Shown here one piece after another: positions 50,178 through 63,822 of a stretch of DNA of 64,000 nucleotides (positions are counted from its first letter, which is position 1; each line of letters opens with the position of its first letter). This stretch comes from an uncultured Oscillospiraceae bacterium (GTDB lineage: Bacteria > Bacillota > Clostridia > Oscillospirales > Oscillospiraceae): the NCBI GenBank assembly GCA_947624385.1, contig CANQJZ010000004.1, positions 18,182 through 82,181 on the forward strand. The letters are read 5' to 3'. The notes under the pieces are model-generated. The model was not told where the DNA came from, ran no database searches, and worked only from the letters and a program-made list of their open reading frames with translations. A program made the translations under genes and the position numbers.

Positions 50178-51173
50178 ATGGACTTCAACGCGGACTCATT
50201 CAAGATCTTTGATAAGGAATGGGCGCTGGTCACAGCCGGCACACCGGAGCACTACAATACCATGACCATTTCCTGGGGCGGCCTTGGAACGTTATGGGGC
50301 AAGCCGGTGGCCACGGTCTATGTGAAGCCCATCCGGTACACCCACAGTTTCCTGGACGCCAACGACTATTTCACCGTCAGTTTTTATCCTGAGAAATACC
50401 GGAGGGCACTGCTGACCCTGGGCTCCCTATCCGGCAGGGACGGGGACAAGGTGGCCAAGGCCGGGCTGACAGCCAAAGCGCTGGAGGGCGCCGTCACCTT
50501 TGAGCAGGCAAAGATAACGCTTCTGTGCAAAAAGATCTACCGGCAGGAACTGGATACCGCCGCCAAGGGCGGCATCTCCGCCCTGACCCATGCCTTGGCC
50601 GTGAGCCTCGCGGGAAAGGTGCGGGTCAACTCCATCTCTCCCGGCTGGATCGACACGGGTTATACCATGTCGCACGGTTCCGGCGTTAGCCGGGAGCGCG
50701 ACCGGGATCTTTTGGGTGTAACAGCGCGCAGCGGCTGTTACATCGTCTATGAGGGCCCCGACGCGGCCCAGCACCCGGCTGGTCGGGTGGGCGTTCCGCT
50801 GGATATTGCCAACATGGTCCTGTACCTTTGCTCTGACAAGGGCGGCAAGTGGTTCACCGAGATGAGCATGGGCGCGTCTCTGCCCACCTACGATTCCATG
50901 GTGGTGTTGACCCACTTTAAGGGCCACGTCATGGGCGGCTTCGGCGGCTCCAACAAAAACATCGGCATCGGCTGTGTGGACGGGCGGATCGGCAAGAAGA
51001 TGCTCCATTTCAAAGACGGCGACGAGTGGGGCGTGGCCCAGGAGGAGCTGATGGAAAAGATCAGCGAATCCACGACAGCCACCATTGACCACTTTGGCAA
51101 GCGCGTCACCTATCAAGGAGAAACTGCCGTCCGCATTTCGCGGACGGCGGTCCGCCGGAAGGAGTGGCGTGTC
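50178..51173 (+). pseudogene. In-frame mosaic of flavin-reductase N-terminus, SDR C-terminus and DUF362 fragment
   Basis: Open frame: MDFNADSFKIFDKEWALVTAG..CKKIYRQELD | TAAKGGISALTHALAVSLAGKVRVNSISPGWIDTGY..QHPAGRVGVPLDIANMVLYLCSDKGG | YDSMVVLTHFKGHVMGGFGGSNKNIGIGCVDGRIGKK. Confidence 0.7.
50659..50744. repeat. Dispersed palindromic element (family C), copy 2, inside the mosaic ORF
   Basis: Reverse complement of 352-434 with mismatches: GTTATACCATGTCGCACGGTTCC..GCGCGACCGGGATCTTTTGGGTGTAACAGCGCGCAGCGGCTGTTAC. Confidence 0.7.
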
Positions 51174-51869
51174 GTGAGATTTACAGCTCTGCAAAGCGCG
51201 GATGACATCATCCGCCTTACACAGCAGATCGGATTCCTCCCGTTTTTCAAAAACGGCATACCCGGCTTTTCCGTTGAGGAACACTGCCCGCCGGAGCTGT
51301 GGTTTGCAGACGATGTGGACGGTCCCTGGGAGTGGAAGGGCCCCATCGCCCGCAGCGGTCGATGCGTCTATGGGAAGTTCTTTGCCGGAAAGGCGGGTTT
51401 TGTGATCCGGGAGTGGTTTCCGGACTTTGCCAACCTCCGCAGGGATGGCTACGACTTCGACGCCCGGTTCGACGACGGGCTCGCCTCTTACAAAGATAAG
51501 GGCATCTATGATACGGTCGCGGCCCGCGGCGCGTTGCTGTCGAAGGAGCTGAAGGACCTGTGCAACTACCGCAAGGGCGGAAACAAGGGCTTCGACACTG
51601 TGATCACCCGGCTGCAGATGCAGACTTATGTGAGCATAGCCGATTTCGTCTATATGCAGGATAAATACGGCCAGACCTATGGCTGGGGTGTGGCGAAATA
51701 CTCCACGCCGGAGGCGCAGCTGGGCCATGACTGTGTGACGGCTGCATACGGGCGCGAACCGGCCAGATCCTGGGAGCGGATCGCAGAGCATATGCAGAGC
51801 GTTCTGCCGGATGTCCCCGCCGAAAAGCTCCAAGCCATTTTCGCAGTGCGCTCTCATCTTGCGGTATGA
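51174..51869 (+). CDS. AlkZ-related protein
   Basis: GTG start with AAGGAG RBS; VRFTALQSADDIIRLTQQIGFLPFFKNGIPGFSVEEHCPPELWFADDVDGPWEWKGPIARSGRCVYGKFFAGKAGFV... In frame with the upstream mosaic. Confidence 0.7.
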   Translation: MRFTALQSADDIIRLTQQIGFLPFFKNGIPGFSVEEHCPPELWFADDVDGPWEWKGPIARSGRCVYGKFFAGKAGFVIREWFPDFANLRRDGYDFDARFDDGLASYKDKGIYDTVAARGALLSKELKDLCNYRKGGNKGFDTVITRLQMQTYVSIADFVYMQDKYGQTYGWGVAKYSTPEAQLGHDCVTAAYGREPARSWERIAEHMQSVLPDVPAEKLQAIFAVRSHLAV

Positions 51870-53661: not shown

Positions 53662-54504
53662 CTATTGATCTTTCGGTCCGTCGTCCTTTTGGCTGGCGGC
53701 GTATTCCTCCGCCTGGCGCTCATGCAGGTCGCGGATGGCGTTTTCCAGGTCGAAGGTCCGGTCCAGGTGCCGGTATATCGCCATAAACCCTCCGGACAGG
53801 GGCAGCCACAGGTTGGTGATGACCACCACCAGCATGCTGACCGGCGAAAAGACAAGCGCCGCGCCCAGATACGCCAGACATAGCAGCGCCCCGCCCAGCG
53901 TAGACAGCGGATGGGCCAGCGTCAGCAGGAGCGCGTTTTTCGCGATGGACAGAAAGGGCTGGTCAAACAGGGGTATCAGCGCCCACATCCACAGGAAAAA
54001 CCCCGTCGTCACCACCGCGCCCACCAGCAGCAGGACCAGAATGAGCATCCCCGGCCCGCCGGGGGATACGTGGCGGAGGATGAAGTACTGCGCGCCGTAC
54101 ACCAGCGCATACAACACGCCGGGCAGCAGACTCTGCCGCCGGTTTTTCCGCAGCGCCTCCCGCCAGCTGTAGGACCACATCAGCGGCTCGTCCCGCAGGC
54201 TCCGCAGCAGCGTGTCCGCCAGCGCGCTCCAAAACGGGCCGGCCAGCATCCCGCCCACCAGGCATGCGGCCGCCAGCGCCAGCAGCAGGTGGCTCTCAAC
54301 GGCAAAGTACATGCCCAGAAAATAGGGGATCATGACCAGCAGCGCGATAAAGCCGCTGATCCAAAAGGCCCCAAAGTCCCGGCCCGAAACCTCCGCCCAG
54401 CGGGCAAAGCCCTTTTTCCGGGGCGCGTTCGGGTCCACGCCGGGCCCGGGCCTGTCAAAGCGCATAAAAGGGAACAATGCCGCCGTCACCTCCGTTTCAG
54501 GCAT
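53662..54504 (-). CDS. Multi-TM membrane protein (possibly YesL/DUF624-like)
   Basis: 280 aa, TM helices, GGMLAGPFWSALADTLLRSLRDEPLMWSYSWREALRKN. Confidence 0.65.
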   Translation of the reverse strand: MPETEVTAALFPFMRFDRPGPGVDPNAPRKKGFARWAEVSGRDFGAFWISGFIALLVMIPYFLGMYFAVESHLLLALAAACLVGGMLAGPFWSALADTLLRSLRDEPLMWSYSWREALRKNRRQSLLPGVLYALVYGAQYFILRHVSPGGPGMLILVLLLVGAVVTTGFFLWMWALIPLFDQPFLSIAKNALLLTLAHPLSTLGGALLCLAYLGAALVFSPVSMLVVVITNLWLPLSGGFMAIYRHLDRTFDLENAIRDLHERQAEEYAASQKDDGPKDQ

Positions 54505-54581
54505 CCAGTATACACCATATCCGCCCCGGCCGCAACAACGATCATCTGACGGCGAAACGCCAAAAGGAAAGGGTTCGAGCT

Positions 54582-55608
54582 ATGCCAAAGTACCATCTTG
54601 CCATTGACATCGGCGCGTCGTCGGGCCGGCACATCGTGGGCTGGCTTGCGGACGGCGCGCTGAAGACGAAAGAGGTCCACCGCTTCCCCAACGGGGTCCA
54701 GGAGCGGGACGGCCACCTGACCTGGGACATAGCCGCCCTGCTGGCGGAGGTCCGGGCGGGCATTGAAAAAGCCCGGACGGAATTTGGACAGATCGCCACC
54801 CTCGCCATCGACACCTGGGGCGTGGACTACGTGCTGCTCCGGGGGGACGAGGAAGTCCTGCCCTGCTGCGCCTACCGGGACGGGCGCACCGAGGCGGCGA
54901 TCGAAAAGGTCCACGAAAAAATGCCCTTCCCGGAGCTCTACCGCCGGACCGGCTGCCAGTTCCAGCCCTTCAACAGCATCTACCAGCTTTACGCGGACAA
55001 GCTGGCCGGCCGGCTGGAGGGCGTCACGGACATGCTGATGCTACCGGAGTACCTGCTCTGGAAGCTCTGCGGTGTCAAGGCCCGGGAGTACACCAACGCC
55101 ACCACCACCGGCATGGTCAGCGCCCAGACCGGGGAATTTGACCTGGGCATCGCGGACGCGCTGGACCTGCCAAGGGCGCTGTTTCCCAGGCTCACCAGGC
55201 CGGGGACCAAAGGAGCTGTGCCCGGACACGCCCTTTCCGGAGATCGTGAAGCTGGCGGAGGCCAGCGCCTGCGCCGCCACCGTGGACGCCAACGCGCCCG
55301 CGTTTTTGGCCCCGGAGAGCATGAAAGCGGCCTTTGACGAGGCTTCCGGCAACGCCCTCCAAACCCCCGGCGATTACTTCCGCTGCGCCTATGCAAGCCT
55401 GGCCCAAAGCTACCGGGACGCCATCCGGGAGCTGGAACGCAACACCGGCAGAACATACGAAAAGCTCTACATCGTGGGCGGCGGGGCGAAAAACGCTTTT
55501 CTGAACCGCCTGACCGAACAGGCCACGGGCCTTGCGGTCGTGGCTCTGCCCATCGAGGCCACGGCCCTGGGCAACTTAAAAGTACAAATGGAGGCAGCAT
55601 CATGTTAG
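54582..55608 (+). pseudogene. rhaB: Rhamnulokinase with internal deletion/frameshift
   Basis: Frame 1 MPKYHLAIDIGASSGRHIVGWL..LWKLCGVKAREYTNATTTGMVSAQTGEFDLGIADALDLPRALFPRLTRPGTK; frame 2 ELCPDTPFPEIVKLAEASACAA..YFRCAYASLAQSYRDAIRELERNTGRTYEKLYIVGGGAKNAFLNRLTEQATGLAVVALPIEATALGN. Confidence 0.82.
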
Positions 55609-58721: not shown

Positions 58722-59279
58722 TCAGTTGTTGGGCGTATTGCCGCTCTGGCTGGCGGCGGCCGCGCCGCCGGCCGCGATCACGCCGGATTCGTTCTCCCGG
58801 CGTATCTCCCGCTCCCGGATGATGCGCTCCAGGGCCACGTACACGGACACGATCTTGTCCAACTGGCTCTCGTCCAGCACGTCGATGTAGTACACGTCGT
58901 GCAGGGACACCCACTTCTGGTGGGTCCGGGCCAGTACGCCGCCCAGGGAGTTGACGAACTCATAGTTGTGCTGGAGGATGTCGCCCCGCATCTGCCAGCC
59001 CAGGCCCTCCAGGTCGATAACGTCCTGCATCACATGGAAAAGCTCGGTGCGGACCTCTACCTCCTCCCCGTCGGCGAACTCGATGACATGGGTCTCGTGC
59101 AGGGAGATGGGCTTGTGCCTGATGGTGGCGACGGTCTCGCCAGCCGCGTTGCGAACAGTGGTGGTGTCATGGATGGAAATGGCCTTGCTCTCCACGGTGT
59201 ACAGCACCTGGTCGGCCTCGTCCATGATCTCCATTTTCTTGTGGATGGAGAGCATCTTGCTCTTGGCGTGCAGAAGCAT
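58722..59279 (-). CDS. LURP-one-related (YxjI-like) protein
   Basis: MLLHAKSKMLSIHKKMEIMDEADQVLYTVESKAISIHDTTTVRNAAGETVATIRHKPISLHETHVIEFADGEEVEVRTELFH. Confidence 0.78.
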   Translation of the reverse strand: MLLHAKSKMLSIHKKMEIMDEADQVLYTVESKAISIHDTTTVRNAAGETVATIRHKPISLHETHVIEFADGEEVEVRTELFHVMQDVIDLEGLGWQMRGDILQHNYEFVNSLGGVLARTHQKWVSLHDVYYIDVLDESQLDKIVSVYVALERIIREREIRRENESGVIAAGGAAAASQSGNTPNN

Positions 59280-59304
59280 ATTTCGTCCTCCTGAATGGGT
59301 CGGC

Positions 59305-59703
59305 TCAGTCCTTCGGGCCCTTGAACGCGCCGATCGTGTACAGCACCGGCAGGATCAGAGGCGCCACGACGGACACGACGATGGCCAGCGCGCCGTTGGT
59401 GGTGGAGATGCCGGACACGGCGCTGATGATGCCGAACACCAGAAGGATGATGCCCAGGACCTTGCAGCCGGTGAACTGGCCCTTCACGCCCAGGATACCG
59501 GCCACCAGGCCCAGCACGGACCCGCTGCCGAGCATGACGGCCGTGACGCTGCCGGCCACCACGCCGACGCTGGCGCTCTCCGCCGCGGCGCCAAGCACCG
59601 CGCCGCCCATGACGGCGGTCAGGATCGTCAGGACGATGCCCAGGACGCACACGACGATGTAGATGATGCTGACGACTTTCAGAAGCGTATTGGGTTTGGT
59701 CAT
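59305..59703 (-). CDS. Small multi-TM membrane protein, unknown function
   Basis: 132 aa, four predicted hydrophobic segments. Confidence 0.7.
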   Translation of the reverse strand: MTKPNTLLKVVSIIYIVVCVLGIVLTILTAVMGGAVLGAAAESASVGVVAGSVTAVMLGSGSVLGLVAGILGVKGQFTGCKVLGIILLVFGIISAVSGISTTNGALAIVVSVVAPLILPVLYTIGAFKGPKD

Positions 59704-59807: not shown

Positions 59808-62800
59808 TCAGGACTGGACGGTGGTCTCCAGGTCCTTGCCCAGCGCCCGCTGTTCCTCGGCGAACTGCTCCGCCTTGCGCTTTTGCCACTCGGTGGCCTC
59901 CTTGAACTCCACGGGCTGGTTGAGCACCACCTGCGGGAAGGGCACGTTGATCTTGTACTTGTCGAAGATCAGCTTCATCTCCCGGTTCAGGTCACGGGCC
60001 ATCTGGATGCGGTCGCCCTCGGCGCACTGGGCGACGATCTTGATGATAACGCCGGAGTCGGCCAGCTCGGACACGCCCTTATAAAACGGGCCGTCGGTGA
60101 TCTTGGGCAGGCGCTCCCGGACGTGGGGCAGCTCCTCGGCCAGGATGGCCTCCACCCGCTCCAGGCTCTCGCCGTACTCGATGCCCACGTCGCAGGCGGC
60201 GAAGGACTCCTTGCGGGTCATGTTGATCACGTTGGAGATGGCGCTGTTGTTGATGATCTTGATGTTCTTGCCCGGTTCCTCGATCTTGGTGGTGCGCACG
60301 CCGATCTCCACGACGGTGCCCCGCCAGTCGCCGATGGTCACGATATCGCCCACGCGGAACTCGCCCTCAAAGATGATGAACAGGCCGGCCACGATGTCCT
60401 TCACCAGGTCCTGGGCGCCAAGGCCGATGACCAGGCTCAGGATACCGGCGGAGGCAAGGAGCGTGGCGGTGTCCACGCCGAACATGGCAAAGCAGAAGTA
60501 CAGCGCCACGATCACGGCTGCGTATTTGACCAGGTTGTTCACAAGACGTATCACCGTCTCGCCCCGAGCGCCCATGCTCCGGCTCAGGAACTTCAGGATG
60601 GTGCGCAGCAGCATGCTCACCACGCTGACCACGCACAAAATCATGACGCTGGCGGTGATGGCGAACACGTTCACGCCCTTTGTCCAGGTGCCGTCCAGCA
60701 CGTAGCGGAACACGCTGGTGCGGGTGAAGGCGGTCTCCTTATTGGCAACGGCTACCACGATGAACAGGGCCAGAAGGCCCAGCAGCACCTTCAGCACCAT
60801 CATGGTCTTCTGCTCGGCGGTCATCTCGCCCCAGCCAAGGGCCTGGTTGCTCCATCGGCTGAAGGCGCTCTCCGTCTTTTTCACGGTGCCGTCCGGCATG
60901 ACCACGTCCACCATCCGGGCCCGCTTGCCGGCGCTCGCCTGCTGCGTGGGCTCGGCAGGTTCGGCGGGCGTCTCCTCCCCGGTCTGCTCGCTCTTATCGT
61001 CCCGCCGCCGCTCCAGGCTCAAAAGCAGGCACATCAGCGCCAGGCACACCAGGCTCACCCCGGTGGTGCTCAGGCTCAGAAGCACCCGGTCGCCAAAGAG
61101 CTCATTGGCCGGAATGACCACGTATACGAACGCGTCGTCCGTCTCGATGGCCGCGCCGTAGTACTTGTCCATGCCCAGGGTGAGGTAGCCGCTGTCCCCG
61201 TCCCGGAACATGTCCTCGCCCATGCCGTAGTCCGCGGCGCTGCGGCCGATGTACCGTTCCTCCGGGTAGTAGATGAAGTTCCGGGTGTCCCGGTCCACCG
61301 CGAAGGCGAAGCCGTTGACGCCCACCCGGATGTTTTGCAGCACCGCGCTCAGGCTCAGCTGCTCCACCGCGTTGGCCAGCAGCTCCGGCTGGACGGATAC
61401 CTGCACGAAGCCGTTGGCGCTGCCGTCCTCGTCCCGGATGGTGACGCCCACGTACTGGCGGTACACGCCCACGTCGTCCTTCTGGGCCGGCTGGACCAGA
61501 TAGGGCACGCCCTGCAAAAGCTGCCGGAACTCATAGGACTGCTCGGTGGGGTCCTCGCTGAGGGTGAAGTTGGTGTAGGGCGAATCGGTGGAGACGATCT
61601 TGCCGTTGGCGTCAAAGACGAAAAGATATTCCACGCCGATGGCCCGACTGAGCTCGGCCAGCCGCTCCCGGTCCTCAAAAATATCCGGCCGCTGGCTCAG
61701 GATATAGGCGGCGGTCTCGCCCTTGCTGACGTAGCTGTTGTTATACTGCTCGGTGAGCATGTCCACGTTGGCCTGGTACCGGCCCATGGTCATCTCCACC
61801 TCTTCCAGGCGCTGGGTGTTTTGCAGCGACGCCCGGCTCATGCAGTAAAGGGTCTGCATGTAGTAGGATATGACCAGGATGCAGATAAGGCCCACGGAGG
61901 AAACGGTGACCAGCTTCCGGCCCACACGCCGGTGCCAGCGGAACGCGCCCGCGTCCTTGTAGTTCTCGGCCCGCTCCTCCTCGGTGGCGGCCTCGTCCCG
62001 GGCCTGTTCCTCCTTCAGCATCACGATGGCGTAGAACACCACCACCGTAATGGCGGTGAAGAACACGAACAGCACGATGATGACGGTGATGGCGTTGGCG
62101 GAGTTGATCTCGCCCCTTGTCACCGCGCAGATCACGTATACGTCGTCGGCCTTGACCACGCCGCAGTAAAGCTCCTCGCCGTTGACGGTCATCCAGCAGC
62201 ACCCGCCGTCCTCCAGGTCCTCCACCCGAATGCCCGCGTCCAGCGCGTCCAGGCCGATCATGGCCTCGTCCGGGTGGTAGAGGAAGGTGTAGTCCTTGGC
62301 GGAGATGACGAAGGAATAGCCGTCCAGGCCCACGCTCACGTTCTCCAGAACGCTCTTCCAGGAGGAGGTCTCCTCCGTCAGCCTGTCCAGCTCCGCCGGG
62401 TCCTGGGCAACCACGGCCATATGGCCCCGGTCGATCATGGCGCCGTAATAGCGCAGCTGGCTGTCCCCCGTGTCCACCTCGAAGGCCTGGGAGGGGTCGT
62501 CCGTGCCGAACACGGTGCGAAGCTGGTTGTAGCGGGCGCGGGTGAAGTCGGTCCTGGCCGGTTTGGCCTTATAGAGAACGTTGCCGTCCATGTCCAGGAT
62601 AAACACATTGTCCACGCTCAGAAGGTCCCGGTAGCCCAGCATCACGTCGTCGTTCAGCTCCGGGTCCACCTTCTCCCGCACCATGTACGCCAGGCTCATG
62701 GCCTTGGACTGGTAGATGCCGTCCACGGTCTGCTTCAGGCGCTGGGAGGACTCGCCGGCGGACTGGACCAGCTCGCGAAGCTGCTCGATCTTCTGCTCCG

Positions 62801-62924
62801 TGTCCCGGCGCTGCTGCTGCTGGGAGAGATAGTTCTGCATGGTGGTGAGGTACACGCCCAGGCCGACGAGGCAGACAAGCTCGATGACGATCATGACGAT
62901 CGCTTTTTTCGTCAGTTTTTTCAT
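59808..62924 (-). CDS. MscS-family channel with two extended N-terminal extracytoplasmic sensor (Cache-like) modules
   Basis: C-term ATLLASAGILSLVIGLGAQDLVKDIVAGLFIIFEGEFRVGDIVTIGDWRGTVVEIGVRTTKIEEPGKNIKIINNSAISNVINMT (MscS); N-term two TM-bounded modules of ~250 aa containing VENVSVGLDGYSFVISAKDYTFLYHPDEAMIG and LQNIRVGVNGFAFAVDRDTRNFIYYPEERYIG. Confidence 0.88.
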   Translation of the reverse strand: MKKLTKKAIVMIVIELVCLVGLGVYLTTMQNYLSQQQQRRDTEQKIEQLRELVQSAGESSQRLKQTVDGIYQSKAMSLAYMVREKVDPELNDDVMLGYRDLLSVDNVFILDMDGNVLYKAKPARTDFTRARYNQLRTVFGTDDPSQAFEVDTGDSQLRYYGAMIDRGHMAVVAQDPAELDRLTEETSSWKSVLENVSVGLDGYSFVISAKDYTFLYHPDEAMIGLDALDAGIRVEDLEDGGCCWMTVNGEELYCGVVKADDVYVICAVTRGEINSANAITVIIVLFVFFTAITVVVFYAIVMLKEEQARDEAATEEERAENYKDAGAFRWHRRVGRKLVTVSSVGLICILVISYYMQTLYCMSRASLQNTQRLEEVEMTMGRYQANVDMLTEQYNNSYVSKGETAAYILSQRPDIFEDRERLAELSRAIGVEYLFVFDANGKIVSTDSPYTNFTLSEDPTEQSYEFRQLLQGVPYLVQPAQKDDVGVYRQYVGVTIRDEDGSANGFVQVSVQPELLANAVEQLSLSAVLQNIRVGVNGFAFAVDRDTRNFIYYPEERYIGRSAADYGMGEDMFRDGDSGYLTLGMDKYYGAAIETDDAFVYVVIPANELFGDRVLLSLSTTGVSLVCLALMCLLLSLERRRDDKSEQTGEETPAEPAEPTQQASAGKRARMVDVVMPDGTVKKTESAFSRWSNQALGWGEMTAEQKTMMVLKVLLGLLALFIVVAVANKETAFTRTSVFRYVLDGTWTKGVNVFAITASVMILCVVSVVSMLLRTILKFLSRSMGARGETVIRLVNNLVKYAAVIVALYFCFAMFGVDTATLLASAGILSLVIGLGAQDLVKDIVAGLFIIFEGEFRVGDIVTIGDWRGTVVEIGVRTTKIEEPGKNIKIINNSAISNVINMTRKESFAACDVGIEYGESLERVEAILAEELPHVRERLPKITDGPFYKGVSELADSGVIIKIVAQCAEGDRIQMARDLNREMKLIFDKYKINVPFPQVVLNQPVEFKEATEWQKRKAEQFAEEQRALGKDLETTVQS

Positions 62925-62934
62925 GGCGCACCCC

Positions 62935-63690
62935 TCAGTCCCACTTGTCGATGTAGTCCTGGACGGTGCCGTCGGAGAGCATCTCGTCCATGGCCGCGGC
63001 CACCTGCTCGCTCAGATCGGAGCCCTTTTGGGTGGCCACGCCATAGTACTGGGTGGCCAGAGAACCGGGCAGATAGACCCGGTCCTCGTTCATATACGCC
63101 TGGGCGATGCACCCGTCCATGCAGACCGCGTCCACGTCGCCCCGTTCCAGCGCGTCGGACAGGTCCTGGTAGGTGTCCATTTCCGCAAGCTGCACGCCCT
63201 TGTGGCTGTACTGCTTCATGGTGTCGGTGACAAGCTCGCCGGTATTGGACCCGGCCAGCACGCCCACGGTCATGCCCCCCAGGTCCATCCACCGCCGGAA
63301 GCAGGACGAGGTCTGGACCATGAAGACCGTATCGTCGCTATAGTACGGCTCGGAGAAATCGAACAGCTCCTGCCGCTCGTCGTTGATGGAGTAGCAGGCG
63401 ATGAGGCAGTCCACCTGGCCGTTTTGCAGCACTTCCTCCCGGGTGGTGGGGGTCACGGTGACGAACTCCACCCCGTCCCGGCCCAGCCGCGTGGCCAGCT
63501 CCTTGGCCAGGTCGATCTCCAGGCCGTAGTATTTGCCGGTGGTCTCGTTGAGAAAGCCGAAATTCACGATGTCATCGCGAACGCCTACCACAAGAGGCTG
63601 TTCCTCCGCCAGGGCATGCTGCCCGCCGGCAAAGACGTTCACGGCCAGCAGGACAAGCAGCGCCAGCGACAACGCACGGATCTTCTTCAT
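62935..63690 (-). CDS. Family 3 extracellular solute-binding protein (amino-acid type)
   Basis: MKKIRALSLALLVLLAVNVFAGGQHALAEEQPLVVGVRDDIVNFGFLNETTGKYYGLEIDLAKELATRLG...DCLIACYSINDERQELFDFSEPYYSDDTVFMV. Confidence 0.92.
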   Translation of the reverse strand: MKKIRALSLALLVLLAVNVFAGGQHALAEEQPLVVGVRDDIVNFGFLNETTGKYYGLEIDLAKELATRLGRDGVEFVTVTPTTREEVLQNGQVDCLIACYSINDERQELFDFSEPYYSDDTVFMVQTSSCFRRWMDLGGMTVGVLAGSNTGELVTDTMKQYSHKGVQLAEMDTYQDLSDALERGDVDAVCMDGCIAQAYMNEDRVYLPGSLATQYYGVATQKGSDLSEQVAAAMDEMLSDGTVQDYIDKWD

Positions 63691-63822
63691 CTGCACACCT
63701 TCCCTTCGACAGAATAACATCCAACTTTTTATATTATAATATAACATAGTTTCACGGGCTTGTCCACTGTTTTGCGTGTTTATTCGCCGTCAGGACGGGT
63801 TTTTCCCGGAAAAACAACTCCC

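Follow-up and report, generated by a model that had tools for sequence, protein, structure and literature searches.

A 64,000-nucleotide stretch from the genome of an uncultured gut bacterium of the Oscillospiraceae (hereafter, the window) carries, on the minus strand, a gene for a mechanosensitive channel of the MscS superfamily with two N-terminal sensor modules and, immediately upstream, a gene for a family 3 solute-binding protein (SBP). We consider it roughly an even chance that the two genes work together as an MscS-type channel under chemical control, in which the loaded SBP docks on the sensor modules, whether or not these also bind a ligand themselves. MscS channels are mostly regarded as tension valves, whereas this arrangement suggests that the channel responds to an outside chemical besides membrane stretch. 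Each component has precedents, namely MscS channels whose N-terminal regions are large, Cache receptors, and receptors stimulated by SBPs, but their combination appears to be new: neither a Cache-MscS channel nor its pairing with an SBP was found in the open-access literature that was searched.

An MscS channel with tandem dCache-like modules

The channel gene (59808..62924, minus strand) encodes a 1038-aa protein composed of two TM-dCache-TM units, the first of them with a dCache-like domain, an extra TM helix and an MscS core. The coordinates of this ORF and its C-terminal MscS signature had been correctly reported in a preliminary description of the window, and the MscS domains are matched in Pfam: MS_channel_2nd (PF00924) with an E-value of 2.5e-17, MS_channel_1st (PF21088) with 8e-9 and MS_channel_3rd (PF21082) with 21.3 bits, just above its threshold of 21.0. 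The pore, beta and C-terminal domains by which the superfamily is recognized are thus all present (Pfam, NCBIfam). Together with the additional TM helix (residues about 708-726), the MscS TM helices and the beta and C-terminal domains span residues about 707-1003 (59916..60804, minus strand), as delineated by Pfam, NCBIfam and hydropathy. An ORF of 1115 aa runs antisense to the channel gene. However, given that both the channel and the SBP genes are under purifying selection (dN/dS of 0.12-0.29), the 1038-aa ORF is not a GC-rich phantom, and the domain matches likewise speak against that reading.

Hydropathy resolves the order TM, ~250 aa, TM, a 40-aa linker, TM, ~250 aa, TM and a 75-aa linker, after which come the additional TM helix and the MscS helices. 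This agrees with the two consecutive N-terminal TM-loop-TM modules noticed earlier, and we infer eight TM segments with the N-terminus inside, the reading that accords with MscS topology. Module 2 (residues about 338-636; 61017..61913, minus strand) contains a Pfam dCache_1 domain at residues 374-576, the score of which, 45.0 bits, is exactly the Pfam cut-off of 45.0; the same family is matched by 18 of 19 relatives. In module 1 (residues about 1-299; 62028..62924, minus strand), the Pfam matches to Cache domains are all sub-threshold, but a separate AlphaFold2 model of this module (mean pLDDT 73) retrieves dCache domains of chemoreceptors as its best Foldseek matches, with E-values of 1e-9 to 1e-7 and low TM-scores of about 0.2-0.4. 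The full-length model, a monomer of modest confidence (mean pLDDT 60.6) in which the MscS part is poorly modelled and falls below 50 in places, matches both dCache domains and MscS; for the dCache structures, Foldseek does not specify which of the modules is matched. Both modules match dCache folds, module 1 tentatively; the lack of such a fold had been named beforehand as a refutation of the Cache-type interpretation. When profiles of the modules were compared with the sequences of solved structures, only chance hits were obtained.

The two modules are homologous to each other, as judged from the comparison of their profiles (99.2%, E-value of 6e-20 over 270 columns), so a duplicated TM-dCache-TM unit is the probable origin of the N-terminus of the channel. 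The internal repeat from which this relationship was originally suspected is real and is recovered also by tblastn within the channel ORF (segment E-value of 2.5e-14), although the first copy reads VLENVSVG rather than VENVSVG as initially given. Amino acid sensing by domains of the dCache_1AA type was considered and rejected: the motif of this group is YxxxRxWY (PMC9901441), followed by Y...D, and there is no R.W[YF] anywhere in the channel protein.

The solute-binding protein and the gene pair

The SBP (62935..63690, minus strand) consists of 251 aa and combines an SBP_bac_3 domain (Pfam E-value of 5.3e-28) with a predicted export signal, a hydrophobic stretch judged by eye, which together identify it as a family 3 member. 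It has no lipobox; this was dropped as a special trait of the channel SBP, because none of three stand-alone ABC SBPs that were inspected in the same genome has one either. In the alignment, Arg106 and Asp192 are invariant and lie at the usual amino acid contacts, that is, at positions which commonly grip the amino acid backbone in proteins of this fold. The nearest solved relative is 2v25 (E-value of 7.7e-32), which is Campylobacter Peb1a, a binder of aspartate and glutamate. Given this closest match and the invariance of the two backbone-contacting residues, the ligand of the SBP is likely to be amino-acid-like.

The stop codon of the SBP gene is separated from the ATG of the channel gene by 10 bp (62925..62934, minus strand), and GAGGGG, which overlaps the stop, may serve the channel gene as ribosome-binding site. 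There is no ABC permease or ATPase gene beside the pair, so that the close upstream position on the same strand and the lack of nearby ABC genes, both pointed out previously, hold. No promoter was found between the two genes, whereas a sigma-70-like site lies upstream of the SBP gene (63738..63766, minus strand; TGGACA, 17 nt and TATATT, with TG before the second hexamer; 10 of 12 matches), which is weak evidence on its own, considering that 2 such sites were found in the region and 1.0 was expected.

Downstream of the channel gene and on the same strand (58722-59703) are genes for a LURP-one-related protein and a small membrane protein, which are kept in only some relatives. The same is true of the other neighbours of the window copy, the SBP gene being the only one that is kept consistently. 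Elsewhere in the window, a carbohydrate kinase gene (FGGY_N; 54477-55608, plus strand), located beside isomerase and aldolase genes, is spread across two reading frames and seems to be broken, and a 563-aa ORF (50178-51869, plus strand) combines matches to flavin reductase, short-chain dehydrogenase, DUF362 and AlkZ-related proteins, an odd mosaic or an assembly fault.

Conservation and origin of the pair

Within the genus, the channel is carried by 18 of 35 genomes (one of these copies is cut by a contig end), and the same 18 carry a close SBP, whereas the other 17 carry neither; one genome contains two copies of the pair. The gaps between the two genes are about 10-13 bp, with a short overlap in two genomes. 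The same gene order is found in L044, with 58% identity to the window in the channel and 47% in the SBP, and in the genera g110, g99 and g21, where the identities are about 31% and 39-42%, respectively. In these distant lineages, the two genes are separated by a 4-bp gap or overlap by 12-22 bp, and the SBPs of the latter three genera have lipobox-like signals, as read by eye. Adjacency is thus strict in every SBP-linked lineage, and the linkage in relatives, the absence of which had been put forward as a possible refutation of a functional pair, extends well beyond the genus. The identities of the two partners correlate pairwise (r = 0.94 for channel versus SBP), which partly reflects common descent, as does the co-inheritance of the two genes.

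The channel-linked SBPs form one clade (support 95/99) apart from the SBPs of ABC importer operons; the related SBPs sampled outside this clade are encoded in ATPase-SBP-permease-permease operons of other genera, that is, in amino acid ABC importers. This pattern fits a single recruitment of an SBP from an importer followed by co-inheritance with the channel. In a quick channel tree, the SBP-linked rows require two changes of state, and the tree does not show a single gain of the SBP. Only four alignment columns separate channel-linked from ABC-linked SBPs at 80%, with no clear signal of an interface.

The channel architecture is broader than the SBP-channel pair. In g5, g12 and g113, relatives with this architecture are encoded without an adjacent SBP, indicating that the architecture can do without one. 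Outside the family of the host, no long Cache-MscS protein was found in a class-wide sample of 388 genomes at an E-value threshold of 1e-55. In the g5 relatives L067:2987-6919 and L068:2989-6921, which have no adjacent SBP, the dual-module MscS protein is extended at its C-terminus by ~270 aa that match nothing in Pfam; the guess that this extension is an ATPase domain therefore found no support there. A further dual-module MscS gene (L070:2154-6455) begins 15 bp after a gene for a histidine phosphatase (branch 2) with a signal-like N-terminus, an exported partner other than an SBP. Short MscS genes of the order, too, are preceded by genes whose products have a predicted membrane helix along with a long non-cytoplasmic portion (L157:1324-3180, L160 on the minus strand and L161:384-4370). 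The pairing of MscS with exported proteins may be common in the order.

Possible modes of action

Several known systems come close to the pair. In ionotropic glutamate receptors and the bacterial GluR0 (PDB 2pyy), a family 3 SBP-type domain is tied to an ion channel by fusion to a potassium-channel-like pore, whereas the SBP of the pair is a protein of its own next to an MscS pore. MscK, YbiO and MscM, the MscS proteins with large N-terminal regions, share the pore, beta and C-terminal domains with the channel, but here the N-terminal region consists of two TM-dCache-TM modules and the channel is coupled to an SBP gene. Stimulation by loaded SBPs is known for chemoreceptors, kinases and cyclases (PMC9602780). 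The SBP-stimulated Cache receptors have in common with our channel an extracellular dCache domain between TM helices and an SBP partner from a receptor-stimulating family; however, the output here is an ion channel rather than a kinase, cyclase or chemotaxis domain, and docking is a proposal. The alpha2delta subunits of voltage-gated calcium channels likewise attach two dCache_1-type domains to an ion channel complex, although as an auxiliary subunit and not fused to the pore, and YxxxRxWY is missing from the channel described here (PMC9901441).

As proposed in the preliminary description, the SBP, the Cache modules or both may gate the pore. The exported SBP, presumably recruited from an ABC importer, would bind an amino-acid-like solute and, when loaded, dock on the extracellular dCache modules, with or without direct binding of a ligand by the modules. 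The change in the dCache modules would reach the MscS pore by way of the TM helices and the linkers in the cytoplasm, either shifting its tension threshold or opening it, so that the release of osmolytes or amino acids would depend on the extracellular solute as well as on turgor; some MscS channels do export glutamate (PMC12541555, PMC6110860). In its most specific form, this scheme would make the pair a counterpart of ionotropic receptors, in which an amino-acid-loaded SBP acts as a co-receptor that docks on the tandem dCache modules and opens or sensitizes the MscS pore; we put forward this version tentatively, at well under even chances; the tie between SBP and receptor is one of genetic linkage. 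If the proposal is true, the presence of extracellular chemosensors and a dedicated SBP on an MscS channel would mean that gut bacteria couple nutrient sensing to the efflux of osmolytes or amino acids, and it would provide a testable bacterial parallel to the Cache-bearing calcium channels of animals.

Alternatively, the channel might be modulated by a small molecule that the dCache modules bind directly, while the SBP, without contact to the channel, helps by concentrating the ligand or clearing it away. Direct binding is the usual mode of dCache domains, and the long Cache-MscS relatives that lack an SBP are in line with it, but the strict adjacency in all SBP-linked lineages and the established docking of SBPs on the ectodomains of receptors (PMC9602780) make this variant rather doubtful. 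Because no other MscS was detected in the host genome, the channel probably doubles as a release valve. It might even be nothing else, that is, an ordinary tension-gated osmotic valve in which the Cache modules sense the state of the wall or membrane or play a structural part and the SBP is no more than co-expressed, for instance, to recover solutes after osmotic shock. A sole MscS may have to act as a valve, and the large N-terminal regions of MscK and YbiO have precedent value here; nevertheless, the consistent retention of the SBP gene, unlike that of any other neighbour, and the lack of a host ABC permease beside it render this explanation unlikely.

Finally, service of the SBP to an ABC importer in trans, with its place beside the channel incidental or regulatory, is suggested by the related SBPs in the ATPase-SBP-permease-permease operons of sister genera but is highly improbable, given the separate clade of the channel-linked SBPs and the presence of an own SBP with each of the four polar amino acid ABC permeases that the host genome yielded (the assembly is 93% complete, so that a permease might have been missed). 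The channel SBP lies beside none of these permeases, and none of the four is without an SBP for it to serve. Although it shares the conserved Arg and Asp with SBPs of Peb1a-type amino acid importers, it thus lacks the dedicated permease and ATPase that distinguish them, and neither separate transcription of the SBP nor an ABC partner elsewhere, both raised beforehand as objections to the pair, is borne out by the gap, in which no promoter was found, and the permease inventory. The host genome also encodes an SBP-fused sensor, a 1125-aa ORF (G000:C31:4241-5221) in which two SBP_bac_3 regions are combined with a membrane helix and a histidine-kinase-like start (HDIRTPMN).
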